From a virus, in IMG/VR virus record IMGVR_UViG_3300025127_000169, positions 1 to 29,990 of that record: DNA of 29,990 nt. One strand, 5' to 3'. Positions 6-16,375 of the stretch are shown in pieces. The translations under genes and the position numbers were made by a program. A model generated the notes under the pieces. The model saw only the letters and a list, made by a program, of their open reading frames with translations, did not search any database and had not been told where the DNA came from. Within the stretch, counting starts at the first letter, position 1. Every line of letters starts with the position of its first letter.

Positions 6-3000
6 ATGTTTAGAAATCTAAACAAGAAACCGTTTGTAAAAACTTGTTTTGCCTACATTGGTAATCCATATGATGAAACTGTGCCAGATAGCGTTAGAGC
101 AAAATTTTATCCTATAACTTACAATAAGTTTATTCACTATGGTGGGTACATTACAAAGCCAGGATATTTTTTGCCAGAAAACAGTACCGAGCAGAAAACA
201 GAGCAAGAAATAAGATCATCAAATATTAAAAATGCGTATAAAGACATATTATCTGATTTTAGTGATGTTTCTGTTTATCCTGAAGATCCAGATAAGTTTT
301 TAGAAGAAACTGAATGGTTTGAGCCCGTGCACATTGGTATGATACTTAAAGAATCAAGCAGCACTAACGCTTTTACAAAAATACAAAAACGCGCAAAAGA
401 TGCAATTGTACAGGCATATGCTGATTATCTTGGCTTTGCCGCGTCTGAAGCAGAATTTACAGATTATGAAGGCATTGTCGGATCGCTTTCTACAGAGGAA
501 AAAGAAGCATTGGCAGAAAAAATAACTTCTGATTATGTTAACGAAGATATTAAGCCAGCATATATGAAAGATTTGGTTGTTACAACTGATGACTTGCTTA
601 GAATCAACAGAAAAGGTGGGACGCTCGGGCCTTTGCAGGGTCCCAAAAGGGTTGGCCTAGGCCTCAAAAGACAGCGCTATACAGCCAAAGTTTATCCATT
701 AGATACTAAATTAAGAGATATTAATGGTAATGGTAATCGTTGGTACGCTTTAATGTCTTATTTTACAGGGGTTCTTATGGAAAACCGAGGAGGGGGCTTT
801 AGAGAGTGGGGCGGATCAACTATTCAAGACAACGATGGCGACACTAACGATATTTTGATAATCAATGACGACGATGCTGCTAGCCGATACGACTTGGACC
901 GCGAAACCCTAAATGGAGATCCAATCTTGACTGATACACAATTTCCAGTTTGCATTCCAAGTGGAAGCATACCAAGTGAAGAAGCTGTTAACGCTGCAGA
1001 TAATACTTATAGACGGTATTCTAAAATATCACCCGGCTTTATTAGGCTTATTGAGCTGCTAGCAGATAAAAGTGCTTTAGAAACAATTAACGCGAGAATA
1101 AGACACAGACCTGGCCAAAGAAAGGTTCATCACTGGATGAACGCCTTTATGGAGCTGACTGTTGCTGAAGCTTTAGGATTAACAGACGATCGTCTAAGCG
1201 AGTTGTTTCCTAATTTTAATTCGCTAGATGGTGTAAAAGGAGTTGTTTTTGCCGAGCGTGGAGGCGAAGTTAGTGTTGCTAATGAAGACTCTTCGTTCTT
1301 AACTATTGATTCCGAAGACAGCGAAGAGGCCACTCTTGGTCAAGATGACGATAATCTAGCAAAATACCAAAAATATCAAATATTACCGATGTATATTGCC
1401 TTTGACCAAGTTTTTATACCAGAAAATCATCCATTAGCCTTGACCGGTCAAGATATGTATGACTTTTTTGCTTTAAACAACGACCCAGTTAATAAAGAAA
1501 TGCTTGATCGTTTGCAGAGTAGTACAGAGTTTGACCAAAACCTTGGGTTTACGTCAGCCGTTAAAGCCTTGCCACCAGCACTAGGAAGTGATGCTAGCCT
1601 GTTTCCAGAAAGAATTATAAGTGATAATTTAGAAACTCATAAATTTGATGCTGACGTCATTAAGGTTAATATGCCGTTTACATCTGCAAAGTTAAATTCT
1701 AATGGCACCAGCGCAGGTTTAGACGTTCAGTCGGTCGCAGCATTGTTTACACAAGATTTTAATTATCAAGACATAATTGATCAGTATGTTAATTTTGAGG
1801 CCCTTGTAGAAGAGACCGTGAAACAAGACGACTTGCTATATCAAAATGTCGGCGCTCCTCTACAAAACAACATAAATTTGCAGCTTGATTCTGTGCGCAA
1901 TGTTTCTAAAATTGCAAAAGCAGTGATTAGGCCTAGCCAACAAGGAAGCACACCACCTAATATTATTGACTCTCCAAGCAAGATAGCAAGTCAAAAATTT
2001 AATTTTGATTTAGCTAAGCCTTTGCCGCAAGACTTACAAAGTCTTATTAATAATCTATATGCGGATTCGTCTGGTCCGATTAGCCAGAGAATTGTTTCTG
2101 AATACAACACAGAAACAGATTTAGGAATTCAAAAAGGATACAATTCATTTAACTTTAAAGCACAGATTTTTGGTAAACTTTTATCACAAAAAATTGATAG
2201 TCTTCTTAATCAATACAAAGACAGCAATCAAGCTGGTCTTAGCGAAATAGAAAAAAGCCAACTTAAAGTTGCTTTTGCTGATTATTGCTATCCTGCATTG
2301 CAATCTGCTTATATACATCAGTCGTTTTCTAGACTGAAAGACTCTCGCCTGCAATACAGAAAAGGTATGCGAAATTTATGGAAAAAAATCTTAAGAGTTA
2401 AAGGGTTTAACAAAAATTCTGATCCAGAGTGCGTTAATCCTTTAACAGAAAGCACTGCCTTGTCTAACGAAGAATTACAAAATACTGAAACAGACTTCTT
2501 TAACATAGCTAATGTAAAGCAAAGAATACTAGACTATTATCAAAAATCAGTTTGCAGAGACGTGTATGAGGACAACACACCAGAGCAGAACGCTGGAAGG
2601 ATTGCTTTGCTCCAAGGCACATTGATAATGATGGTGAAGATTTTTACCTTAGAAGCTTGTTTTAGTGGCGTTATAGCTTGGGACAGCTACGACATAGCTG
2701 ATGTTATAGAGTCTGAGCTGTTAATTAATATAATCATAAACAACATCCAAAATGAATTGCCAGAGGGCATCAGTATGGAGCTGATTACAAGCATGGCAAC
2801 AGAGGTCATTAAAAAAGATGAAGGATTATCTGACGTTGAGTTTGCAGCAAAACGTGGCGAACAGAGTGGTCTAGAGTATCTAATTCGTAAAGAAGCAAAG
2901 AGTATTGAGAGAGCAATAGAGGGTGACAAAACGCTTGATCTAGGCCCAGGAGCTAGGTCAAATGTTGGTATATTCAGAAATAGAAACGCTCTGACAACAG

Positions 3001-6000
3001 ATTTAATACTGAGTGTGCTTAAGTCATCAGACCAAGATTTTGAACAGGAATATGTTACCAAAATTAAGCTTGATTTACTTGATGAAGAAGTAGGCTCTGA
3101 CACAAAAGCAGAAATATATCAAAAATTTGGTGTTGAGCCTCCACAGGAACTTTTAGACGTTCCTGTAATACCAGATGATGAGCAGCTACTTCAGCAAGCA
3201 ATTGCTGCAGGGCATCTTCCAGAAGACGCAACATTGATTGTGCTACCAGAAGAAGTCAAGTTTCCAATTTATCCAGTTGCAGATACGCTTGATTTTACCA
3301 ATCCATTTACAATCCTTGTGTATACAATTACTCAGTTTAACAAGCAGCCATCACCAACTACGCCCCCTCTTGACCCTGATGATGCTAATGATAATAGCAT
3401 TATTGGAGATGCTATAAATAAATCAGCTGAGGAGTATGATTTAACATACCAACATTTGCAAACATTGCTTCAGCAGCAAGTAGCGTTAAACGCTGTGTAT
3501 GGTGGCTTAATTCAGCCTCCTGCTGAGGTTCAAATAAAAATACAACAACTAGATAAGGAAATCGCGCGCTACAATATTTTCTTACAAATATTACAATCTA
3601 AAATTAATTTTTATGATCAGTATCAAGACTCAAGCAGCGATACGTTTAAAACTTTTCAGTTAAAATACTTTGCAGCAAATTATGCTTTTCAGCAAAGACA
3701 AAAACTTCAAAATGCAGCTGCAGAGCAAAACTTGATTTTAGATTCTTATCGTCAACAATATGAGTTAGCCCAGCAGTATCCACTGGTGCAAAATCAAGCA
3801 ATAGAAAAAGAAAATCAACAAAAACTAGAGCAATTACAAGTAGAGCTAGATAAAGTTTCTAGTCCTCAAGCGTTTAAGGCTATTTTTGAGGCAACAGATG
3901 TAGATTTTGCTACAGATGTTCGCTTTGAGACAAACATATATACAATGAATTATGGCAGAGGACAAAAAGAGAAAGATATTTTTATTGCAGCTGAGCAGGG
4001 ATTTTTAGAACCAACTCTGCAGATGAATGAACAAAACCTGTTTGATCAAAAAACCGAACAGGATGTTTCAGATATTCTACATAAAAATAATAGAAACTTC
4101 TTTCACTCTTTACCAGTTAGAGGCAGGTATATTACTGGTATACACTATCCTCAAGCTAGCGCAATACAACAGCTGAGAGTAGCTTCTGGAAATGGATTTT
4201 TTGATCTGCCATTTTCTTTTGATAACAAGTCTGCTGAAACAAGTGATTTTAAAAATATAACTGCGATACAACGCGATATTTTAGGCTTATCACATTCCTT
4301 TACAAAAGAAAACTTTTGTGAAACAACATTCGGAACAAAACAAAATGCTAAATTAGGAAATGTTTTATTCCAGCCATATGTTAGATTGGTTGATACTACA
4401 CCAGAAGAAAGAGCAGAGATGACAATAGACATATATCAAACTATTGACACTGACTCTACTGGCAAGCCTTGTGAGCCAAAGTTGGTTAAGTTTACTTTTG
4501 ATGCATCAGATTACGAAGAAGTCTTCCAGCAGATTGATGCCAAGCGCAACTATAACAATAATGTGTTTGGATGTGAGATGCGAGAGTACGTGCCGATATC
4601 TGCTTGGAGCTATTTTTATAATGAAATATTTATGAAAACTTTATTGTCTTACCCGACACATCAGCAATCTGGCTTGAATCCACTACACGAGTTATATAAG
4701 AAATATGGTTTCACACTTATGTTTAAGAAACATAACTTTGGCTTAAGATTGTCATATACAATACCAGCAGAGATTATTAACAACCGCTTGGGCGCCAACT
4801 TTGATTTAACGTCAAAGCTTGATGAAATATTAGGCCAGTCGCCTGACTCTGGAACACCATCTTCCTTAGGAACAAGGTTGTCAAAGGCAATATTATCACA
4901 ACGACCTTACGGATTGTTTGACTCGCAAAGCAAAGCTTCCAATCCAAATATATTTGATTTTAATGGATATGAAGTTTTAGATGAACTTAGCATCCCAATT
5001 ACAGAGGTTGAGCAAGAGCTAACAATAAACGAAGGTCAAAATACTTTCTCTATTGAAGGCCAAGAATACAATCTAGATAGCTTAGGCCATTGGAATCAAG
5101 ATACATTATCAATTGACTTTGCTTCACAGCTAGCGGAAGAAGACAACATTGACAAATTAAAGCACTTAGTCAATAATCCGCACCAATTTTTCTATAAAAA
5201 TCTTTCTCAAACTTTAGTAGACAGAATGAAGGATAGTGCAGAGTTTAAATTAATGTACGATTATATGTTCCCAATGAAGACATACATGGGTCTAGGCTTT
5301 ATCTATGCTGGCGAAGGCTTGACAAAATTCATACCAAAACCAACAGATATTCTAGATGAGTCTAAGAGAACTATTTTTATGGCGATGGTAAACTTATTAA
5401 ATTCAAACGATTATACATTTTTACCAGACGTTTTAGCTAATCAATCTGAGGCTTTAGCTATTAGAAACTTAGGAGGCACAACAGGTAAAGATCCTGATAT
5501 GACCAAAGAGATCTTAAAAATTATATATGAAACAATGTTTTTAGTTCTTAAAAACTTTGTTGAGATAACAGATCCGGCTGTGATTATCGCTAAGAGAATA
5601 ATTGATGCAACAAACGCTATTGTTACAGCAGCTTTGGCCGCAGTTGAGACTGGCTTAAATACAGCTAAAGCTGCTTTAAACGGCGCCAAGCTAGCACAGA
5701 AAAACTTACAGCAGCAAGTTGGTATGCAGGTCACTAGCGCGGCATCAATAGCCAACGCATTAAAAAATACTTTAGCTTTTCCAGCAGATCCAGAAGACGC
5801 TAACTCACCATTGGTAAAAGATTTAATTACCATAGATATTGAAGGCGAAGATCCTGAACAATGGACAGTTGAGTACGATGATAGGTTAAAGCCTAGCTCC
5901 GTTGAGGTAGTTGCTAATGATGAAGGCGAGGCAATTGGTGAAGTTAGCGTTGCTGGAGGTGAGTACTTTGAGAAGCTGCCAGGTGAAAATAAAACAGCGC

Positions 6001-6374
6001 TTTCATCATTCTTGGCAAAACTAGAAGAACTTAATGATTTAATCAGCGAATATGAAGAAGTCACAGTAAAACTTAAAGAAATTAATGAGAAGCTGGAAGA
6101 GATTCTAAAAGAAATAGAAATTTTTCACAGAAAAGCAAAAAATACAATGAAAGAGATATTCCAATCTCCGTACCTTTTACCTGCTCTGTGGGGCGCCCTG
6201 CTTCCATCAATGACCCCATATTTTGGTGGCCTTGTGCCTCCCCCAATTGTTATTGGCCCACCAAGCACCGTGCCTGGTATGATTTATATCGCGTTACTAC
6301 TTATAGATGCAGCAGAAGAAAAGATACACGATGATGTATTTAGCCCAGAAGATCCTTGCATAGAGGAGTTGTAG
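6..6374 (+). CDS. Giant phage structural protein of unknown role, probably 5'-truncated by the window edge
   Basis: The reading frame is open from the left edge to TAG at 6372-6374. The first ATG (position 6) has only five bases before it, so no ribosome binding site can be judged. It is probably an internal Met, with the true start upstream. At least 2122 residues are present. Visible features are an Arg/Gly-rich patch around residues 200-265, an Asp-rich stretch near 274-300, a long Gln/Glu/Leu-rich predicted coiled coil at about 1140-1290, an Ala-rich helix at about 1861-1918, a second Glu/Lys coiled coil at about 2001-2050, and a hydrophobic Pro-rich C-terminus at about 2051-2105 (it includes VPPPIVIGPPSTVPGM). 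There is no signal peptide and no enzyme motif. Lying just upstream of gp25, it is most likely a baseplate, hub-associated or fibre component. A tape-measure role is less likely, because the helical parts are confined to segments. Virion role is inferred from context; the exact function is unknown. Confidence 0.8.
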   Translation: MFRNLNKKPFVKTCFAYIGNPYDETVPDSVRAKFYPITYNKFIHYGGYITKPGYFLPENSTEQKTEQEIRSSNIKNAYKDILSDFSDVSVYPEDPDKFLEETEWFEPVHIGMILKESSSTNAFTKIQKRAKDAIVQAYADYLGFAASEAEFTDYEGIVGSLSTEEKEALAEKITSDYVNEDIKPAYMKDLVVTTDDLLRINRKGGTLGPLQGPKRVGLGLKRQRYTAKVYPLDTKLRDINGNGNRWYALMSYFTGVLMENRGGGFREWGGSTIQDNDGDTNDILIINDDDAASRYDLDRETLNGDPILTDTQFPVCIPSGSIPSEEAVNAADNTYRRYSKISPGFIRLIELLADKSALETINARIRHRPGQRKVHHWMNAFMELTVAEALGLTDDRLSELFPNFNSLDGVKGVVFAERGGEVSVANEDSSFLTIDSEDSEEATLGQDDDNLAKYQKYQILPMYIAFDQVFIPENHPLALTGQDMYDFFALNNDPVNKEMLDRLQSSTEFDQNLGFTSAVKALPPALGSDASLFPERIISDNLETHKFDADVIKVNMPFTSAKLNSNGTSAGLDVQSVAALFTQDFNYQDIIDQYVNFEALVEETVKQDDLLYQNVGAPLQNNINLQLDSVRNVSKIAKAVIRPSQQGSTPPNIIDSPSKIASQKFNFDLAKPLPQDLQSLINNLYADSSGPISQRIVSEYNTETDLGIQKGYNSFNFKAQIFGKLLSQKIDSLLNQYKDSNQAGLSEIEKSQLKVAFADYCYPALQSAYIHQSFSRLKDSRLQYRKGMRNLWKKILRVKGFNKNSDPECVNPLTESTALSNEELQNTETDFFNIANVKQRILDYYQKSVCRDVYEDNTPEQNAGRIALLQGTLIMMVKIFTLEACFSGVIAWDSYDIADVIESELLINIIINNIQNELPEGISMELITSMATEVIKKDEGLSDVEFAAKRGEQSGLEYLIRKEAKSIERAIEGDKTLDLGPGARSNVGIFRNRNALTTDLILSVLKSSDQDFEQEYVTKIKLDLLDEEVGSDTKAEIYQKFGVEPPQELLDVPVIPDDEQLLQQAIAAGHLPEDATLIVLPEEVKFPIYPVADTLDFTNPFTILVYTITQFNKQPSPTTPPLDPDDANDNSIIGDAINKSAEEYDLTYQHLQTLLQQQVALNAVYGGLIQPPAEVQIKIQQLDKEIARYNIFLQILQSKINFYDQYQDSSSDTFKTFQLKYFAANYAFQQRQKLQNAAAEQNLILDSYRQQYELAQQYPLVQNQAIEKENQQKLEQLQVELDKVSSPQAFKAIFEATDVDFATDVRFETNIYTMNYGRGQKEKDIFIAAEQGFLEPTLQMNEQNLFDQKTEQDVSDILHKNNRNFFHSLPVRGRYITGIHYPQASAIQQLRVASGNGFFDLPFSFDNKSAETSDFKNITAIQRDILGLSHSFTKENFCETTFGTKQNAKLGNVLFQPYVRLVDTTPEERAEMTIDIYQTIDTDSTGKPCEPKLVKFTFDASDYEEVFQQIDAKRNYNNNVFGCEMREYVPISAWSYFYNEIFMKTLLSYPTHQQSGLNPLHELYKKYGFTLMFKKHNFGLRLSYTIPAEIINNRLGANFDLTSKLDEILGQSPDSGTPSSLGTRLSKAILSQRPYGLFDSQSKASNPNIFDFNGYEVLDELSIPITEVEQELTINEGQNTFSIEGQEYNLDSLGHWNQDTLSIDFASQLAEEDNIDKLKHLVNNPHQFFYKNLSQTLVDRMKDSAEFKLMYDYMFPMKTYMGLGFIYAGEGLTKFIPKPTDILDESKRTIFMAMVNLLNSNDYTFLPDVLANQSEALAIRNLGGTTGKDPDMTKEILKIIYETMFLVLKNFVEITDPAVIIAKRIIDATNAIVTAALAAVETGLNTAKAALNGAKLAQKNLQQQVGMQVTSAASIANALKNTLAFPADPEDANSPLVKDLITIDIEGEDPEQWTVEYDDRLKPSSVEVVANDEGEAIGEVSVAGGEYFEKLPGENKTALSSFLAKLEELNDLISEYEEVTVKLKEINEKLEEILKEIEIFHRKAKNTMKEIFQSPYLLPALWGALLPSMTPYFGGLVPPPIVIGPPSTVPGMIYIALLLIDAAEEKIHDDVFSPEDPCIEEL

Positions 6375-6384
6375 GAATAAAAAA

Positions 6385-6783
6385 ATGAAAGGAATAGGCC
6401 CACAACTACCATTTGAAATAAGCGACACCGATGGTGCATACCATCTTATAAAAGAATATAAAGACGAAATAAAACAAAATTTTAAAAATCTTCTTTTAAC
6501 CTCGCCGGGTGAAAGAATGATGAACCCTGATTTCGGGGTTGGATTAAGGCAGTTTCTTTTTAATCCTAGTGTGCAGGTCGTTCCAGCTGTTAAAACTAGA
6601 ATACAGAGTCAGGTACAAAAGTATTTACCGTTTATAAGAATAGACAAGATAGATATAAAACCGATTGACGCTAGAGGGCTTTTTGATGAAGATTCGCAAA
6701 TTTTATCTATTGAGATTATTTATGGAGTACCCAGTTTAAATTTAAACACCAGTATTATACTCTCTACAGAGGAAACAAATTAA
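6385..6783 (+). CDS. 25: Baseplate wedge protein, T4 gp25-like
   Basis: This 132-residue protein has the same length as T4 gp25. It carries the family hallmark LLLTSPGERMMNPDFGVGLR around residues 37-56: an extended helix followed by the PGER and NPxFG core that corresponds to the EPR motif of the gp25/IraD family. The family is structurally lysozyme-like in name only. Its known role is to form part of the inner baseplate wedge next to the gp6-gp7 core, contacting the first sheath layer, and it is a marker of contractile injection machines. The ATG follows the preceding stop by ten bases, with AGGAA overlapping that stop (6373-6377) at good spacing. Only three bases separate it from the gp6-like gene downstream, consistent with co-assembly. 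The functional call is strong. Confidence 0.95.
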   Translation: MKGIGPQLPFEISDTDGAYHLIKEYKDEIKQNFKNLLLTSPGERMMNPDFGVGLRQFLFNPSVQVVPAVKTRIQSQVQKYLPFIRIDKIDIKPIDARGLFDEDSQILSIEIIYGVPSLNLNTSIILSTEETN

Positions 6784-6786
6784 TAA

Positions 6787-8580
6787 ATGAGCAAAAAAGA
6801 GAAAAAAATAATCAATTATACATCGCGAGAGTTTTCAACCATAAAACAGTCTTTAGTTGACTATGCAAAAAGATATTATCCAGACAATTTCAAAGATTTT
6901 TCTGAGGCGTCTTTTGGTTCTTTGATGCTTGATACTGTGTCTTATATGGGTGATGTGCTCTCTTTTTATTTAGATTATCAAACAAATGAGTCTTTTTTAG
7001 ATACAGCGATTGAATATGACAATGTATTGAGACTAGGAGAGCAAGTTGGATATAAAGAAAAGCTAAAATCCAATTCATTTGGCTTAGTTTCTTTTTATAT
7101 ATTGGTTCCGGTAACTGCCGCAGGCCTTCCAGACACAGACTACTTACCAATATTAGGAAAGGGCACCCAGCTTACGTCTAACTCAGGACAAGTATTTACT
7201 TTAATTGACGATATTGATTTTGCTGCATCAAGAAACGAGGTTGTACCAGCGACAAGCAATACCGGCGACGGTCAAGTTACAGCATATGCAGTAAAAGCAT
7301 ATGGTAGAGTTATGTCTGGAATTGAAGAGACTGAGCTTATTACAGTTGGCTCATTTACTAGATTTTTAACTGTTGAGTTAGCAGATAGTAATATTACAGA
7401 GATAGTATCAGTTGTTGACTCGGAAGGTCATGAGTACTTTGAGGTTGATTACTTATCACAGGATACTATATTTAGATCTGTAGCTAACAAAGATGATGCC
7501 ACAAGAGAGTTGGTACCCAGCGTTATGGTTTCTACTTCTGTACCAAGAAGGTTTGTTACGACCAACAAGAACGGCGTGATCACTTTAAAGTTTGGCCATG
7601 GTTCAGAGTCCAGCTTAAAAACAGACAACCTAACTCATCCATCAAACGTAGTTTTACAAATGCATGGTAAAGATTACGAGCAAGACACAAGCTTTGATCC
7701 TTCGGACCTTGTTAAGTCTGATAAATTTGGAGTTGCGCCTGAGAATACAACTTTAAGAATTATTTATAGGAAAAACACTTCTGACAGCTCCAATGTAGCT
7801 ACAAATGGGCTAACAAACATATTAAATCCAATTTTTATATTCAAGCCAGCAGCAACGGTTAGCACAAAAATTGATTTTGTTCGTAACGGCCTAGAGTGCG
7901 TTAATGAAGAGCCAATAACTGGTGATACGTCCTTACCAACAGTTGGCGAACTTAAACAAAGAATAAATGATGTTTTTGCCTCTCAAAACAGAGCAGTTAC
8001 AGCTAGCGACTATGAGGCCCTTGTTTATAGAATGCCGGCAAAATTTGGTCAAGTAAAGAGAATTAGCATTTTAAGAGACCAAGACTCTTTTAAAAGAAAT
8101 TTAAATATGTATTTGCTGGCTGAGGATCCAGATGGAAATTTCTCAGTGGCCAGCCAGATTCTTAAAAATAATGTTAAGACTTGGCTTAATAATTATAGAA
8201 TGCTAAATGACACTATTGATATTATTGACCCAAAGATAATAAACATTCAAATTAACTTTACAGCAGTTGTAGATTACGAGCAAGATAAATTTGAAGCTCT
8301 AAACATCGCAATTACAGAAATACAAGAAATGTTTGCACAAAAATTAGACATTGGACAGCCAGTTTACATTACTAAAATTTATGATGTTTTAAACAATCTA
8401 GATGAAATTGTTGATGTTGTAAATGTTAAAATTACTAATAAGTCTGGTGGTACTTATTCTGATGATAGTATTAATTTAAATCAATATATCTCAGCGGATG
8501 GTAGAATTTTATACGCACCTGAAAATGTAGTTTACGAATTAAAATTTCCTAATTCAGATATTAAAGGAACAGTTAGATAA
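6787..8580 (+). CDS. 6: Baseplate wedge protein, T4 gp6-like / baseplate J family
   Basis: The protein has 597 residues, close to the size of T4 gp6 (about 660). Its N-terminus has the typical gp6-like segment: YTSREF at residues 11-16, then a Tyr-rich helix region with KDFSEASFGSLMLDTVSYMG and SFYLDYQ to about residue 75. A central ITLKFGHGSES stretch near residue 265 matches the FGxG turn of baseplate J-type proteins. Residues 391-415 (NRAVTASDYEALVYR) open the conserved C-terminal half that ends in ITNKSGG. In T4, gp6 dimers form the ring that links adjacent wedges and is central to sheath-contraction triggering. The same role inside the virion is inferred here. AGAGGA at 6768-6773 serves as a somewhat distant ribosome binding site. 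The stop overlaps the next start by one base. Confidence 0.93.
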   Translation: MSKKEKKIINYTSREFSTIKQSLVDYAKRYYPDNFKDFSEASFGSLMLDTVSYMGDVLSFYLDYQTNESFLDTAIEYDNVLRLGEQVGYKEKLKSNSFGLVSFYILVPVTAAGLPDTDYLPILGKGTQLTSNSGQVFTLIDDIDFAASRNEVVPATSNTGDGQVTAYAVKAYGRVMSGIEETELITVGSFTRFLTVELADSNITEIVSVVDSEGHEYFEVDYLSQDTIFRSVANKDDATRELVPSVMVSTSVPRRFVTTNKNGVITLKFGHGSESSLKTDNLTHPSNVVLQMHGKDYEQDTSFDPSDLVKSDKFGVAPENTTLRIIYRKNTSDSSNVATNGLTNILNPIFIFKPAATVSTKIDFVRNGLECVNEEPITGDTSLPTVGELKQRINDVFASQNRAVTASDYEALVYRMPAKFGQVKRISILRDQDSFKRNLNMYLLAEDPDGNFSVASQILKNNVKTWLNNYRMLNDTIDIIDPKIINIQINFTAVVDYEQDKFEALNIAITEIQEMFAQKLDIGQPVYITKIYDVLNNLDEIVDVVNVKITNKSGGTYSDDSINLNQYISADGRILYAPENVVYELKFPNSDIKGTVR

Positions 8581-10103
8581 TGGCTATAAAAAGATATACA
8601 GCGACAAAAGATAACACGATTACAAACGCATTTGGTGTTGGTTTATCTACAAGAGCAACAGGCTCAAATATGGGCGCCTCTGATATACTAGAGATCTTTT
8701 CAATTTATGGCCAGCAGCAAACAACCTCTTCTGCAGCGACAGGCTCTGTTGAGCTTTCTAGGCTTTTAGTTGAGTTTCCCGTCAGTACAATATCTGCCAA
8801 TAGAGCAGCAAATCTAATTCCAGCATCTGGAAGCGTTAACTTTTTTCTGCGTATGTTTAATGCGCGGCATTCTGAGCAACTAGCAAAGGATATTACTGTT
8901 AATGTTTTAGCAGTGTCGCAGTCTTGGCAAGAGGGAACTGGGCTAGATATGGTTTCTTACACTGACACAACCAGAGACTCAATAGATGGCTCAAACTGGA
9001 CTAATAGAGAGAGGTCAGCAGCTTGGGGCAAGCCAGGTGGAGAGTATCACTCTTCTTCTTATACCGCTGGTCAAACAATGCCAAACTATACTTTTACTTT
9101 TACTGATGGTTACGAAGATCTAGAACTGGATGTTACAGCTGTTGTGGAAGAGTGGATCGCAGGTACGCAACCAAACTACGGTTTTGGAGTGTTTTTAACT
9201 TCTAGTCAAGAGGGCTACCTATCTAATTCTTCCGGCTTAGATTCTGGTCCGAGCTTGCACAATCCAGCCGGCGCAAAAAGAAGCTATTATACTAAAAAGT
9301 TTTTTTCTAGATCTAGTGAGTTTTTCTTTAAAAAACCTGTAATTGAGGCCCGTTGGGATTCTAGAATTGCAGATGATAGAGGTAATTTTTATGCTAGTTC
9401 TTCAATAGCTAGTGGAGCAGATAATTTAAACAATCTGTATCTTTATAATTATATAAGGGGTCGTCTAGCTGATATACCACGCACTGAAGTAGTTTCTCTT
9501 AAGTTGTATGCTAGCTCTAATTCATCACCTACCGGCAACGCTCTTGCTACTGCAATTGCGTCAAAACTGCAAACTGGAATATACAAAGCTCAAATAGCTA
9601 TTGACACTACAGCTAGTGTCCTACATGATGTATGGTCTGGCTCAATTGGTGGTGAGTATAAAACTGGGTCAATTTCTGTCAAAAGCTTTAATGATGAAAA
9701 TGTCTTGCTCGCTAACGCCTACCCTAGGTTTACAAGCGCAATTACAAATTTAAAACCAAAATATGTAAAAAATGAGCAAGCTAGATTGAGAGTTTTTTCT
9801 AGGGAGATAGGAAAGGCACCAACTTTGTACACCGTTGCAACTTCTGATATACAACCTGCTATTATCCAAAGCGCTTCGTTTGAAGTATTAAGAATGTTAG
9901 ATGAACACACCGTCATAAACAACTCTACGGGAAGCTCTACTTACCACACATATTTATCATATGATAACTCTGGCAGCTACTTTGATTTAGATATGTCTCT
10001 GCTGGAGCCAGGATATATGTATGGGATTAGACTTTCTTATCACGTAGCAGGAGACTGGAGAGAACAAGAAGAAGTGTTCAAATTTAGAGTTGAAGATAAT
10101 TAA
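8580..10103 (+). CDS. Virion protein with DNRLRE/CBM96-like jelly-roll domain
   Basis: The protein has 507 residues. Its N-terminal half reads like a DNRLRE-type (CBM96-like) beta jelly-roll. It has an opening TATKDNTITNAF with NMG, the RLLVEFPVSTI strand at about residues 59-70 (family pattern RxLlxFdl), a VNVLAVSQSWQEGTGLD strand and turn, and VTAVVEEWIAG with PNYGFGVFL at about 184-205, matching the usual DVTdlVqxWlsGxxxNyG. The C-terminal half, from KPVIEARWDSRIADDRGNFY at about residue 252, is a second predicted beta-rich region that I do not recognise outside phage relatives. No catalytic residues are evident. It starts at an ATG overlapping the gp6-like stop by one base, with AAGGA at 8564-8568. 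Placement between gp6-like and gp7-like genes suggests a baseplate-attached, surface-exposed, possibly glycan-binding component. That role is inference. Confidence 0.8.
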   Translation: MAIKRYTATKDNTITNAFGVGLSTRATGSNMGASDILEIFSIYGQQQTTSSAATGSVELSRLLVEFPVSTISANRAANLIPASGSVNFFLRMFNARHSEQLAKDITVNVLAVSQSWQEGTGLDMVSYTDTTRDSIDGSNWTNRERSAAWGKPGGEYHSSSYTAGQTMPNYTFTFTDGYEDLELDVTAVVEEWIAGTQPNYGFGVFLTSSQEGYLSNSSGLDSGPSLHNPAGAKRSYYTKKFFSRSSEFFFKKPVIEARWDSRIADDRGNFYASSSIASGADNLNNLYLYNYIRGRLADIPRTEVVSLKLYASSNSSPTGNALATAIASKLQTGIYKAQIAIDTTASVLHDVWSGSIGGEYKTGSISVKSFNDENVLLANAYPRFTSAITNLKPKYVKNEQARLRVFSREIGKAPTLYTVATSDIQPAIIQSASFEVLRMLDEHTVINNSTGSSTYHTYLSYDNSGSYFDLDMSLLEPGYMYGIRLSYHVAGDWREQEEVFKFRVEDN

Positions 10104-10129: not shown

Positions 10130-13100
10130 ATGAGCACTAAAGATCTATTTAATAAAGGCTATTCTCTTAAGTTTTTAAAAAACAAAACTCGCAATGATTT
10201 GCGTGAAGATTTAGAGTCACATCGCTTCGTGAATGCATATTCATCAAAGCGAGCACGGTTCTTGCCGAGTTTAGATTTCACAACTGCTTCTAATTTTGCA
10301 CGCTTTGGCCTCGCAGAAGAATATTACGAAACATCAATTAAAAGAATTTATCAAACATATCCGTATGATGGCTCACAAGCAGAAAGAACAGAGTGGGAAA
10401 ATGATAGCACATACTTAGACCTTTTTATATTTGAGAACGAATACCCAAGGACTAATGGTTTTGTAACTTTTAATAGTAGTTCACATAGTACAATAGGTAC
10501 GGTTGCAAACAATGTTTATAGCAGCTCTGCTCCGCAATATGTTGAGTTTGTTGGTGGCCCACACGCTGACCCTGGAGGTGACTTTAAAAGCGATCCGGCT
10601 GCAGGTCCATCCCAACCTGGTATATCAAAAGCAAATATTTACGATACAGACTTTCGACGCGTAAACAATCTAGAGATCGATCCATCTTTTGGCAACACTG
10701 TAGAGTTTTGGATGAAAAAAGATGGCTGGGTATCAACTGTTTCTCCACGTCACGAGACTGTTTTTCACACCACGCCACACGGTGCAACTGGAGGCGCTTA
10801 CGGAGAATATCAGCTATATGTGAGAGGCACAACTGCGGGCAGCATCTTTCTTAAGATAAGCTCAGGATCAACAGACATAACAAACACTTTTGACACTGGC
10901 TTAGCAAACATAGCAGACTCAAAATGGCATCATTATGCATTTACATCTAAAACCAGCGGCTCAGCGACTGAGTTAAATTTTTATGTTGATGGCGTACACA
11001 AGTCCAAAGTTTTTAACGTCAGCACTATTAATACAGTTACAGGAGCAATGCAAGGCGCCATCGGTGCTCTTGCTGGCCAACTAAGCTCCTCTGCTGGAGG
11101 TCAATATGCAGCTGCAGGTTGGGGAAATATTACCTCTGCTTCTTTTGACGAGTTCAGATTTTGGAAAAAAGAAAGAAATGCTCAACAAATAGGAAGAAAT
11201 TGGCGTGCCCAAATAGCTGGTGGAACAAACACTGACAATATAAAGTATGACGATGAGCAAAACTTTGTTGACTTGGGAGTGTACTATAAATTTAATGAAG
11301 GTGTTACAGGCGATGCTAGTATTGATGCGTCTGTATTAGACTATTCTGGCAGAATAACAAATGGCACATATGTTAATTATAGCAGCACAACATCTAGAAA
11401 TACAGGATCTGCTATAGTAAACTCTGGCACTGAAACATCAGAATTCAAAGATCCTATCATATATTCTTCTCATCCTAGTGTATCTGCTTTACTTGAGGCT
11501 AAAATATTAGAGGGGCGCCAGCACGATCATCAAAATCCAGCTTCTATATACCGGTCATTACCAGGATGGATAGCGGAAGAAGATGAAGAAAAATCAAAGC
11601 ATCTTAAGTACTTAACTCAAATTATAGCTAGCTTTTTTGATGATACATACTTGCAGATGCAGGCGCTCCCAGCTTTAAAAAATATAAATTATCCAGATGA
11701 CAATTTGTATGAAAAACCTCTTCCATTCGCTGAGAGGTTGTTAGATCACAGAGGTTTTGACCCACCAGAACTTTTTGCGCACGCTTCAGCTCTCGCAAAA
11801 TATCTTGAGCGTGACGAAAAAAGACTTTTTGAGAAAAAACTTTACGAAGTTAAAAATATCATTTATCAAAATATCTACAATAACTTAAGTCACATACAAA
11901 AAACAAAAGGCACATTTAAATCATTAAGAAACTTTTTACGTTGTTTTGGCGTTGACGAAGAGTTAATCAAGCTTAATATTTACGCCAACGATGATGAATA
12001 CGAATTTAAAGACAACTTTACCAATACTGCAGTAAGAAAAAGATATTTAGATTTTGATGATCTAGAAACAAGGTTAGCTGCAACAGGTAAGTATGACAAA
12101 TCTTTTACAGCAACAGCTTATCAGGTAACTTCATCTATTGATTCTAACTCACTTTCTTACATACCAGCAATCACTGCTACACAAATGTCAGGTGCAGCAT
12201 TTACTTTAGAGGCGGAAGTTTATTTTCCAAAAAGAAGTATTGTTGGTGATGATAACTTTTTATTATATGGCTCTGATGAAGTGTCCTTGTTCGGCCTTGA
12301 GGCCGTTAACGCCTCGAATACAAATTACACATATGCTACAGATAATAAAATTAACTTTAATATTATCGCTACAAAGCCAGATGATGATAAAAGAAACGTA
12401 AAATTTAAAATTGCAACATCTGGCTCGTCGCCAATTTTAGCCAACTTAACAAATGATAATTCTTATCGCGCTGTTTACGATAATCAAAAGTGGAACTTAG
12501 CGTTTAGGTTAAGGCCAACAAAACAAGATTTAGCTAATTTGGTTGATGAAAGTCTATTGCCGGCAGCAACAGCTTACACTTATGAGCTTTATGGTGTCAA
12601 TTATGTGTCAAACATACAGCAAGAAGAGTTCACTCTTTCTGGCACAATGAGCTTGTCTGATGCAGCTAAGTTTTTTACTTCTAACAAAAGAGTTTTTGCT
12701 GGTGCAAAAAGAACAAACTTTACTGGATCAGTTGAGAGAAAGTCTGATGTTAAGGTTTCATCTGTTAGATTTTGGCTAGATTATCTTGAGGATGAGACAA
12801 TTCGTGCGCACGGAAAAGATGCGACTTCTTATGGTGCTTTGCATCCATATAAGAATTCTAATTTCGCTGTTACTAACGACGGGCTTTTTAATAAAAAAAT
12901 ACCTCAGATAGAGACTTTAGTTTTCCACTGGTCTTTAGATAATGTTACTGGTTCTGATGCCTCTGGTCAAATGTTCATACATGACACCACATCTGGATCT
13001 GCATCAGATGTTGCCAATAAACGATATGGCTGGTTTAGTGATGTGAGTAAAAGAAGTTATCCTGCGCAAGGAGACTTTTTTGTATCTGCTTCTGCTCAGC

Positions 13101-16100
13101 GAGATCAGGCTATTGACGTTGAGTTTGTGCAAACTGCAAAGCAAAAATTACCAGAAGTTGTTAACAGTGATGATATGGTCAAGGTGTTAAACAAGCAAGA
13201 TGACGTGCTGTTTACAAGAGATACAACATACGTACAACACTTGTTGTCTGTTGAAAAAAGTATGTATCAGATTATGTCTGAGCAAATGTTAAGAATGTTT
13301 GCAACTATAATAGATTTTAATAACATAGTCGGTGAAGCAGCTAACAGATATAGGCCAGAATACAAGGCCTTATCAAAACTAAGAAGTTTATTTTTTGAAA
13401 AAGTAGAGAACCAGCCTGATTTAGAAAAATTTATTGAATATTTTAAATGGATTGATGACGCTATTGGAACAATGATTACACAATTAATACCTGCCTCATC
13501 TAATACAGTAGAGCTTTTACGAAATATGGTTGAGAGTCATATTTTAGAACGCAACAAATATTGGAACAAGTTACCAACATTAGAAAATAAAGTGCCACAG
13601 CCAGTGCTGTCAACTCATGGTATAGAAGAGCTAAAATATAATTGGAGGCTTGGCCACGCGCCAGTTAACGCTAATCAAAACACAAACCAGAACACCAATT
13701 GCTTATGGTGGAAACAAAGAGCAGAAAGGAATGATGCTCTGACCTCTGGTGATGCTGGTGTTGATGCCGACAAAAATGTAATATTAAAAACGTATATAAC
13801 AGAAATCTCATCATCATCAGCCACATTAAAAAAGTCGGATGGTACAAAATATGGAGAAAGCTACTATTCAAATCGCTCTCTTCGCCGCTTGATTGACTTA
13901 GAAACTAATCGCTCTATTAAATTAAAAGGCGGTGGCAACTCACAGTTAACTAATAAACATGATTTTTACAAGAACGTGATTAAGTGGGCTAGTGACGATG
14001 ATTTTATTTTCTTGGATGTTGATAACGAAATACAGAAAACCGATTGTGATGACAAGGTTATTCCTGATGAAATAAATAAAAAACGTTTCAATATTAACGC
14101 GCTAACAATGCTAGCTGGAGAAATAGCAGATTCTAAAGCAGATGGTTCTGGTTTAAATGATCAGAAAGCAACAGATGGAAAAGGAAGTCGTTTACTTCCA
14201 TTCAGCATTTTCTCTTCGTCCGTTGACACAGGTTATCAGAAAGCCTATTCTAGCCAGTTTAAAATCGATTTTACGAACATACACGAGGATAAGTATGGAT
14301 TAGACGCTGAAGTGCCTTTACAGGGGCCATTCTCGCAGAAATACGTCGGCGGTATGCAACATCGTCACGTCAAGCTCAATCAAGGATCTGATGGGCAGCT
14401 AACAAGACCAGAGGGTTGGCATCTGCAGTCTTTTTTAAATTTGTCTCCTGATTCAGAAACTATTTTTAGTGAAACATTTTCTGCTGCAACTACCACTGCA
14501 ACAACAGATGTTAATATATTAAGCTTGCCAGTTGGCTCAACCTCTCCCGAGCCTAGTCCATATGAATATTGGAGGAACGGAGTTGGGACAGATAATTCAT
14601 GGACATTTTTAGAAGGGCCAACACCAACTGCCGGCACAGGTCCCGCTAGCGGAAAATATGCATATTGCGAGGTTTTGCCATCAAAAGTTGGTCAGACATT
14701 TGGTTTAGTAACTCCTTTAGTAGATCTTACAGAAGTCGACGAAGGTTGTAGAGTTGATCTCTCTTTCCGATACCACATGCATGGCTTGCATATTGGTAAT
14801 TTAAAGGTGCAAGCTAGTGCATATAAGAACTTTTCTAGAGGCGTGCACGATCTTGTTGTCCAGTGGCCTACATTTCAGAGTACCGTAATCGCTGGCCAGC
14901 AGCACCTAAATTCTAGTGATTCTTTTAATACTGCAACCGTTTCAACCGAAACTAGTCTTGGCGCAGGTCTTGCCCCTTTTATAGGTAGAAGATTTTATAT
15001 TAGATTTTTGTATACTGCTGGTATTACTCATTTAGGTGATATCGCAATTGACTCTATTAATATTATTAAAAATGCTTTCGGAGCTAGTGCCCCTCAAGAC
15101 TCATTTAAGCTTATGCACCCAACATATGACAATCATAATCGTCCATATGCAACTATGATGAGAACAGAGTTTGCAAAAAGACCAGTTAACATTAAAAATA
15201 TACATATGACTGGCTCTTCACCTACGCAAGCTGGCAACTTTTTAGATCGCTATGAATACATTAATACTGTGTCTCCCGAAGCAAATGATCCTTGGTTTGT
15301 TAAAAATTCAGATCAGCTGCAATCATCAACACCAGAGCTATTACGCTCAGGTGGTAGAATACAGGATGTGCTTGGATTGATACCTGGCACTGTAAGAACT
15401 CAGCTAGGATACAAAGATTTTACATTACCAAATCGATCTTTTATTAGTGGCTCAGTGAAAAATAGAACAAGAATAAAAACAAGATTTAGCTCACCTGGTG
15501 GTTTTGAGACTTTATCGCGTGGATTTTTAGATCCAGCACACGAAACATATTCAGCTTATAACGAAATTAATTTTAGAAATTTATCTTCTAGAACAGTGCT
15601 TAACACGCAACTACAGGCTCATCAAGGTAAATTTGGAGTCAGCAGCCATACAAATGGTATAGCCGCAACAGTCAGAGTTGTCGTCGCTGACGGCGACGCT
15701 GCAATTGGTATGACAGAACAAAAGCATATAACATTAACCTCAACAGACGGAACCACAAAAAGATATGTGATCACAGATTCTAATTCTGATGGAGACACTG
15801 CTACGGGAACTATCCTGTCAGATGCAGATAACACAGACACAGGCACATCAACAGCAGGCCCTACTGAAGACGGCGCTATAGCAATAAGTCTAGATTTGTC
15901 TAGCGGCAGGCAAAATAATTTCTTAGTTGAGTTTAAAAAAGCAGTTGAGCATTCAAACGGACATGCTGGAAAAATAAAAGTATCTTCAGTCCCAGCTCTT
16001 GCTGACGGTGCACAATTTGTCTTGCTAACACAAGCTGTCGTTGGGAAGAAAGGTAATACTGCGATCACAGTTAATATACCTAACGTTACAGTAACTAATT

Positions 16101-16375
16101 CTAACTTGTTTACTGGTGGCACGAATCCAACAGCTAGAGTGTTTGGCGTTGAGGCAAGGGGCACAATAAACTCAAATAATTATCTTCTAACAGGCGACGC
16201 ATCCAGACATAAATATCATAGAAATAATATTGAGAGAATTGAGTTCATAGGCGACGATCCTTTGTCGCTAGCTGCAACATTTGTTACGGCATCTTCTTTT
16301 GATAATGCCTTTGTTTCTCATATGATACCGAGAACAGATCAGCAAACAAGATGGATTACAGCATCAATAATTTAA
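10130..16375 (+). CDS. Giant composite baseplate/adhesion protein: LamG-like, gp7/gpI-like, MAM-like and inserted module
   Basis: The protein has 2081 residues. Domain order as read: an N-terminal segment with IKRIYQTYPYDGS (about 73-85); a LamG/concanavalin-like domain at about 189-391 (NTVEFWMKKDGW, DSKWHHYAFT, FYVDG, FDEFRFWKKERN); a helical segment at about 487-620 ending in IQKTKGTFKSLRNFLRCFGV, typical of tail protein I/gp7-like wedge proteins; a second beta-sandwich-like region at about 689-935 with VRFWLDYLEDETIRAHGKD; a helical block at about 1040-1123; a MAM-like domain at about 1446-1646; a region with KRPVNIKNIHMTGSS; and a small beta-rich module at about 1845-1997. It ends with SHMIPRTDQQTRWITAS. 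An in-frame TAG at 10109-10111 blocks any earlier start. Ribosome binding before the ATG is weak (26-base gap, no clear AGGAG). Inferred role: enlarged wedge protein with peripheral adhesion domains. The virion call is firm, the exact gp7 equivalence moderate. Confidence 0.82.
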   Translation: MSTKDLFNKGYSLKFLKNKTRNDLREDLESHRFVNAYSSKRARFLPSLDFTTASNFARFGLAEEYYETSIKRIYQTYPYDGSQAERTEWENDSTYLDLFIFENEYPRTNGFVTFNSSSHSTIGTVANNVYSSSAPQYVEFVGGPHADPGGDFKSDPAAGPSQPGISKANIYDTDFRRVNNLEIDPSFGNTVEFWMKKDGWVSTVSPRHETVFHTTPHGATGGAYGEYQLYVRGTTAGSIFLKISSGSTDITNTFDTGLANIADSKWHHYAFTSKTSGSATELNFYVDGVHKSKVFNVSTINTVTGAMQGAIGALAGQLSSSAGGQYAAAGWGNITSASFDEFRFWKKERNAQQIGRNWRAQIAGGTNTDNIKYDDEQNFVDLGVYYKFNEGVTGDASIDASVLDYSGRITNGTYVNYSSTTSRNTGSAIVNSGTETSEFKDPIIYSSHPSVSALLEAKILEGRQHDHQNPASIYRSLPGWIAEEDEEKSKHLKYLTQIIASFFDDTYLQMQALPALKNINYPDDNLYEKPLPFAERLLDHRGFDPPELFAHASALAKYLERDEKRLFEKKLYEVKNIIYQNIYNNLSHIQKTKGTFKSLRNFLRCFGVDEELIKLNIYANDDEYEFKDNFTNTAVRKRYLDFDDLETRLAATGKYDKSFTATAYQVTSSIDSNSLSYIPAITATQMSGAAFTLEAEVYFPKRSIVGDDNFLLYGSDEVSLFGLEAVNASNTNYTYATDNKINFNIIATKPDDDKRNVKFKIATSGSSPILANLTNDNSYRAVYDNQKWNLAFRLRPTKQDLANLVDESLLPAATAYTYELYGVNYVSNIQQEEFTLSGTMSLSDAAKFFTSNKRVFAGAKRTNFTGSVERKSDVKVSSVRFWLDYLEDETIRAHGKDATSYGALHPYKNSNFAVTNDGLFNKKIPQIETLVFHWSLDNVTGSDASGQMFIHDTTSGSASDVANKRYGWFSDVSKRSYPAQGDFFVSASAQRDQAIDVEFVQTAKQKLPEVVNSDDMVKVLNKQDDVLFTRDTTYVQHLLSVEKSMYQIMSEQMLRMFATIIDFNNIVGEAANRYRPEYKALSKLRSLFFEKVENQPDLEKFIEYFKWIDDAIGTMITQLIPASSNTVELLRNMVESHILERNKYWNKLPTLENKVPQPVLSTHGIEELKYNWRLGHAPVNANQNTNQNTNCLWWKQRAERNDALTSGDAGVDADKNVILKTYITEISSSSATLKKSDGTKYGESYYSNRSLRRLIDLETNRSIKLKGGGNSQLTNKHDFYKNVIKWASDDDFIFLDVDNEIQKTDCDDKVIPDEINKKRFNINALTMLAGEIADSKADGSGLNDQKATDGKGSRLLPFSIFSSSVDTGYQKAYSSQFKIDFTNIHEDKYGLDAEVPLQGPFSQKYVGGMQHRHVKLNQGSDGQLTRPEGWHLQSFLNLSPDSETIFSETFSAATTTATTDVNILSLPVGSTSPEPSPYEYWRNGVGTDNSWTFLEGPTPTAGTGPASGKYAYCEVLPSKVGQTFGLVTPLVDLTEVDEGCRVDLSFRYHMHGLHIGNLKVQASAYKNFSRGVHDLVVQWPTFQSTVIAGQQHLNSSDSFNTATVSTETSLGAGLAPFIGRRFYIRFLYTAGITHLGDIAIDSINIIKNAFGASAPQDSFKLMHPTYDNHNRPYATMMRTEFAKRPVNIKNIHMTGSSPTQAGNFLDRYEYINTVSPEANDPWFVKNSDQLQSSTPELLRSGGRIQDVLGLIPGTVRTQLGYKDFTLPNRSFISGSVKNRTRIKTRFSSPGGFETLSRGFLDPAHETYSAYNEINFRNLSSRTVLNTQLQAHQGKFGVSSHTNGIAATVRVVVADGDAAIGMTEQKHITLTSTDGTTKRYVITDSNSDGDTATGTILSDADNTDTGTSTAGPTEDGAIAISLDLSSGRQNNFLVEFKKAVEHSNGHAGKIKVSSVPALADGAQFVLLTQAVVGKKGNTAITVNIPNVTVTNSNLFTGGTNPTARVFGVEARGTINSNNYLLTGDASRHKYHRNNIERIEFIGDDPLSLAATFVTASSFDNAFVSHMIPRTDQQTRWITASII
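10694..11302 (+). other. LamG / concanavalin A-like domain (residues ~189-391)
   Basis: This lies within the 2081-residue protein. The signature is the series EFWMKKDG, a central SKWHHYAFTSK, then ELNFYVDG and the terminal SASFDEFRFWKKERNAQQIG, followed by VYYKFNEG. This is the classical LamG strand pattern (W-HH-a-t, n-YvDG, deiRiWn-aRt). Phage LamG domains are usually placed on tail or baseplate surfaces and may bind glycans. No ligand can be inferred here. Confidence 0.8.
14465..15067 (+). other. MAM-like domain (residues ~1446-1646)
   Basis: This lies within the 2081-residue protein. The order of motifs follows the meprin/A5/mu (MAM) domain: an opening FSETF, then NSWTFLEGPTPTAGTGPASG, KYAYCEV, FGLVTPLVDLT, CRVDLSFRYHMHGLHIGNL, then VVQWPTF, RRFYIRFLYTAG and a closing GDIAIDSINI. 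The FRYHMHG-IGNL and GDIAIDxI cores are the most diagnostic. Only two cysteines are evident, fewer than in many animal MAM domains. Its function in the virion is unknown, with adhesion a reasonable guess. Confidence 0.7.
15662..16120 (+). other. Inserted beta-rich phage structural module (residues ~1845-1997)
   Basis: This lies near the end of the 2081-residue protein. The pattern is an opening strand, then ITLTSTDGTTKRYVI, an acidic loop with DSNSDGD, a helix LVEFKKAVEHSNGHAGKIKV, and LLTQAVVGKKGNTAITV ending in FTGG. I recall very similar modules (TDGT-Y, helix, G-I, LTQ-G-GNT-I, FTGG) recurring in different marine phage structural proteins. It therefore looks like a movable domain set into the C-terminal region. 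Confidence 0.6.

Follow-up and report, generated by a model that had tools for sequence, protein, structure and literature searches.

A 2081-residue open reading frame beside baseplate genes raises the question of whether a phage can build adhesion-type domains into the baseplate wedge itself instead of leaving such domains to fibres of their own. The frame lies in a 30-kb virus fragment (29,990 nucleotides, the whole of which is called the window here), and a sequence-only reading had proposed that it encodes a gp7/gpI-like wedge protein enlarged by a LamG-like domain, a second beta-sandwich, a MAM-like domain and a small inserted module. It is a real gene, as that reading assumed, because more than 100 homologues are found in IMG/VR, where at least 110 stretches encode relatives. 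We consider it likely that the product is a gpI/gp7-type wedge arm with lectin-like, putative host-contact domains (Table 1).

Table 1. Coordinates of the 2081-aa protein, its parts and the neighbouring genes in the window.
Feature	Residues	Position	Strand	Basis
gp25 (sheath initiator / baseplate wedge)		6385..6783	+	PF04965, E=1.7e-13
gp6/J-type wedge protein		6787..8580	+	phrog_6, E=5e-21; phrog_219; PF04865 below cut-off
507-aa beta protein		8580..10103	+	weak disaggregatase-repeat/CBM96-like match; invariably follows gp6 and precedes the 2081-aa gene
Candidate baseplate wedge protein (gpI/gp7 position), 2081 aa		10130..16375	+	ORF, homologues and locus order
N-terminal helical segment	1-104	10130..10441	+	family conservation; AF2 helices from residue ~31
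N-terminal LamG	105-440 (Pfam core 186-354)	10442..11449	+	PF13385; AF2; Foldseek neurexin/pentraxin
Helical wedge core, part 1 (candidate)	446-622	11465..11995	+	hhalign 97-98% to immuto, Mel-JY01 and LR756508 proteins; gpI/TIGR02242-like motif
KTKGTFKSLRNFLRCFGV motif	591-608	11900..11953	+	invariant K591, K593, G594
Second beta-sandwich, LamG-like by fold only	630-1006	12017..13147	+	AF2/Foldseek; separates helical parts 1 and 2
Helical wedge core, part 2 (candidate)	1038-1150	13241..13579	+	hhalign LR756508 94%, Mel-JY01 78%, immuto family 90%
MAM-like domain	1440-1660	14447..15109	+	PF00629; only in the window's clade
Conserved C-terminal segment	1661-1865	15110..15724	+	found in 57 loci
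Insertion slot A, ~136-aa module	1866-2001	15725..16132	+	absent from most close relatives
Conserved C-terminal end (DNAFVSHMIPRTDQQTRWITASII) with insertion slot B	slot near 2052	16133..16375	+	slot empty in the window protein
Next ORF, 1896 aa		16412..22102	+	a gene of its own in the window; most distant relatives have it in one ORF with the 10130 homologue

Locus, virus group and gene boundaries

The genes of the window run from a big protein through gp25, the gp6-type protein, the 507-aa protein and the 2081-aa protein to proteins of 1896, 335, 1299 and 964 aa. The order gp25, gp6, 507-type beta protein, 2081-aa homologue is the same in every one of the 70 viral loci that extend far enough upstream to be judged, which supports a place beside gp25 and gp6, and it recurs in Flavobacterium phage immuto, Microcystis phage Mel-JY01 and the 484-kb metagenomic phage LR756508, two of which have one small additional ORF. 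The 507-type protein measures 476-969 aa among relatives, its middle segment varying in length, and is homologous to 369-420-aa proteins of these three phages. The 2122-aa ORF upstream of gp25 (6-6374) is conserved in the window's clade and has no significant match in Pfam or PHROG.

Of the five long relatives (104-193 kb), four encode a terminase and a major capsid protein of the T4-type Gp23 kind (E 1e-59 to 1e-71). With gp25 and gp6 adjacent, this marks a baseplate locus of T4-type myovirus kind. The cyanophage gene psbA was looked for in the five long relatives and is absent from all of them. The nearest capsids among isolates and records are those of Mel-JY01, Rhodothermus phage RM378, LR756508 and immuto, and the nearest gp6 proteins those of immuto, Mel-JY01 and LR756508; taken with Gp23 and the terminase, these affinities place the window's virus group, as far as sequence comparison goes, among distant T4-type myoviruses. 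The 2081-aa protein itself has no relative among INPHARED phages by tblastn (E 1e-5), nor do its MAM region and small module match there when searched in the same way. Three proteins of uncultured marine viruses in BFVD (A0A1B1IWQ4, A0A516LBS1 and A0A0F7L9Z0) belong to the same family, with 28-38% identity over the first ~1195 residues, and carry no assigned function. Relatives of the viral locus also occur in metagenome-assembled genomes called WOR-3, Poseidoniales, Maricaulis and Flavobacteriales (L218, CP070664.1; L215; L216; L219). Viral contigs that were binned together with host genomes, or assembled into them, are the probable explanation, and a host assignment from these genomes was rejected, since the matches fall in unrelated bins.

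The boundaries of the unit call for separate comment. Homologues of the 2081-aa protein and of the next ORF, in which no known domain was found, form one ORF in 28 of the 48 proteins classified in the tree, the complete ones mostly 2,900-3,700 aa long. In one of the fused relatives (3550 aa; L039, 10001-20650) the C-terminal half includes a Reelin subrepeat-B domain (E=1.6e-10). The giant single protein could thus be the true unit and the 2081-residue length a lineage-specific split, a possibility that we rate a little below an even chance: the window's clade (17 rows, support 100/99) has separate genes in each of its 16 judgeable members, the next start codon lying ~36-72 nt after the stop where this was checked. 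Four further split cases are scattered over the tree and may be sequencing errors. Readthrough into the next ORF in a shared frame was rejected because the spacer holds a second stop and the frames differ in L003, L005, L023 and L027. The matter bears on where the protein ends, not on what it does.

The helical core and its gpI-type motif

The most conserved 20-residue block in an alignment of 49 family members falls at residues 581-600 (NIYNNL..I.KSKGT.K..R). The helical segment noticed in the sequence-only reading is therefore present and is the best-conserved part of the family, its motif lying two residues earlier, at 591-608, than the 593-610 originally given. A profile of residues 440-640 matched the proteins encoded at the same place in immuto (1265 aa), Mel-JY01 (1336 aa) and LR756508 (1400 aa) with 97-98% hhalign probability, and the second helical part (1000-1200) matched these three at 46-94% and a deeper immuto profile at 90%. 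The 19 immuto-type, Mel-JY01 and LR756508 proteins all have the KGT motif. Immuto (NC_055915) gp109 and its Mel-JY01 counterpart thus occupy the same place after gp25, gp6 and the beta protein and share the KTKGT helical core, but they lack the N-terminal LamG and the MAM, and their N- and C-terminal domains are unrelated to those of the window protein. Mel-JY01 and LR756508 also carry a domain between the helical parts, which in the Mel-JY01 protein sits where the inserted sandwich does; immuto gp109 has no sandwich. An AF2 model of residues 440-645 alone was poor (pLDDT 58) and returned no Foldseek match, and the core profile found only chance matches among PDB sequences, none of them to a solved baseplate protein.

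Similarity to P2 gpI is confined to this motif. Scans with NCBIfam, which used two separate alignments of related families (49 and 15 members), matched TIGR02242, a phage tail protein domain, in more members than any other family (14/49, best E 0.0045; 7/15, best E 0.019); TIGR01634 (P2 gpI) also appears, below its curated cut-off (4/49 members, best E 0.11), and PF09684 (tail_P2_I) is absent from the records of five relatives. A profile built from 23 gpI proteins aligns motif to motif with the marine family (p ~0.001-0.002, whether or not the immuto set is added to it) and with the immuto set by itself (p 0.009), and true profiles score 25-31 against ~9-14 for reversed gpI profiles. In this alignment the stretch with the invariant K591, K593 and G594 lies on gpI profile positions 76-115, as befits a conserved KGT helical motif, and when the gpI model was run against 1046 ORFs the majority of the best-ranked ones belonged to the 2081-aa family, the match falling on the motif in almost every case. 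A profile of five TIGR02242 sequences alone gave no match to the marine family and p=0.006 with the immuto set. The similarity is short (~27-45 aa) and under every family cut-off, so that the gpI likeness of the family, one short motif below all cut-offs, is suggestive rather than conclusive.

The window gene resembles that of P2 gpI in its place close after J/gp6 and in the xKGT...G helical motif; it does not follow gp6/J directly, as the 507-aa beta protein intervenes, and gpI differs in being 176 aa long and free of adhesion domains. T4 gp7 is likewise encoded after gp6 and is large and multidomain, but it has no detectable sequence relation to the window protein: hhalign gave no significant match between gp7 and the family profiles. 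The gp7/gpI-like assignment made from the sequence alone accordingly is supported for its gpI-type KGT motif, the one consistently gpI-like place in the locus, and fails for a T4 gp7 profile match. The accompanying remark on size holds, gp7 being about half as long (1032 aa), with the Pfam domains Gp7_helical, Gp7_5th and Gp7_6th and neither LamG nor MAM.

Short, sub-threshold gpI similarity and an unmatched T4 gp7 speak for a rival reading, in which the 2081-aa protein would be a peripheral baseplate or fibre protein (gp8/gp10/BW3-like) encoded beside gp6, its KGT coincidental and its helices a fibre-attachment bundle; the shuffling of its C-terminal domains is typical of fibres too. We regard this as unlikely, given that the motif is the most conserved block of the family and is present in every distant syntenic homologue, and that no other ORF in the loci is as consistently gpI-like.

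Adhesion-type domains and C-terminal slots

The LamG-like domain claimed near the N-terminus was confirmed by PF13385 at ~186-354 (E=1.3e-10, 42.1 bits against a gathering cut-off of 27.6), which is also found there in 29 of 33 relatives at E<=0.01. The AF2 model of residues 1-1195 has a mean pLDDT of 72, with the sandwiches mostly at 85-95, and matches LG domains of neurexin, laminin and pentraxin in Foldseek. Residues 630-1006 are confidently modelled as all-beta, so the predicted second sandwich-like region is there, and have no match above gathering score in Pfam, PF13385 included. In the PDB, the model of residues 1-1195 as a whole is best matched by a two-domain neurexin LNS2-LNS3 fragment, aligned over 795 columns, which suggests that the modelled second sandwich is LamG-like as well, an identity resting on fold only.

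The MAM-like domain passes narrowly. With the slice as the only input, PF00629 reaches 27.3 bits at residues 1481-1567 (cut-off 26.4); in the full-length scan it falls to 20.8 bits, below the cut-off, which makes the assignment borderline. A search of the whole protein against Pfam and PHROGs returned nothing beyond a weak MAM match. The small inserted module also proved to be as described, at residues ~1866-2001 and lacking in most close relatives, and a relative of it is found elsewhere, at 2219-2362, in L067/L043. In scans of C-terminal stretches, slot B is filled by PF13385 (LamG_3) in L023, L027 and L028, with E down to 9e-44. The family core thus consists of the helical wedge parts, the N-terminal LamG and the inserted sandwich; the MAM belongs to the window's clade alone, and the two C-terminal slots are empty or filled, in some cases with LamG, depending on the virus. 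The sequences compared show directly where the gene lies, which domains it encodes, what is conserved and that modules are exchanged.

Proposed place in the wedge and possible function

Wedge membership, geometry and ligand binding we infer. By position and motif, the 2081-aa protein would be the third wedge component (in the place of P2 gpI / T4 gp7) of a T4-type contractile tail. The helical parts 446-622 and 1038-1150 are proposed to join two copies of gp6 in the wedge, on the pattern of further contractile tails, for example XM1 with (gp16)2-gp17 (PMC10457771), and to hold the periphery. The chain would then present a LamG before the first helical part, a LamG-like sandwich between the parts, and the MAM-like domain and exchangeable modules after them, with the LamG, MAM and slot domains projecting from the wedge, most likely facing outward. 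There they may recognise glycans or proteins on the cell surface, so that the phage makes first contact or orients itself, or they may offer fibres a surface on which to dock.

Adhesion-type domains do lie in the same chain as the candidate wedge core, as had been claimed; the exclusion of separate fibres that came with this claim goes too far. Because a CBM96-like protein is encoded before the 2081-aa gene and uncharacterised proteins of 1896, 1299 and 964 aa after it, separate fibres may well exist besides it.

LamG folds can also be purely structural. The added domains of a wedge protein could accordingly serve for stiffening, as a cage or for fibre docking and have no host ligand, a reading that we incline against although it is quite possible. 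The N-terminal LamG occurs throughout the family and is well conserved, which a typical receptor-binding part would not be, and in contractile injection systems fibres dock through gp7-like parts (PMC8894135). The C-terminal modules, on the other side, are swapped between close relatives, which fits changing ligands, and the CBMs in the wedge protein of Bacillus phage Vp4 do bind cells (PMC11406892).

The principle of adhesion domains in the wedge is already known from a few other contractile tails, as the Vp4 CBMs and the LamG domains noted earlier on virion components of jumbo phages (PMC7824862) attest. In Vp4 the wedge protein Gp119 (BW3) carries CBMs that are missing from its Deep-Blue homologue and decorates or binds host cells (PMC11406892), and AlgoCIS Alg11 contributes two CBMs to the spike cage (PMC8894135). 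As proposed for the 2081-aa protein, both have carbohydrate-binding folds inside a wedge protein, but the CBM folds are others than LamG/MAM, and the wedge scaffold or placement differs. No description of the LamG/MAM combination, of an insertion inside the helical core or of the C-terminal slots was found in the literature searched.

The preferred reading of a wedge arm with host-contact domains can be extended, tentatively, to a wider statement: widespread uncultivated T4-type marine phages might build lectin domains for host contact into the wedge arm and vary them in C-terminal slots of fixed position, many lineages having wedge and periphery in a single polypeptide of 3,000-3,700 aa. If this is correct, a principle so far demonstrated in Vp4, and proposed for one marine contractile injection system, would extend to marine T4-type phages, and the wedge arm of an abundant uncultured group would be a modular adhesion platform, whose modules would help to predict host range from metagenomes. 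With lectin domains in the wedge arm, binding could couple mechanically to wedge rearrangement and sheath contraction, which would give a direct link from binding to the contraction trigger.
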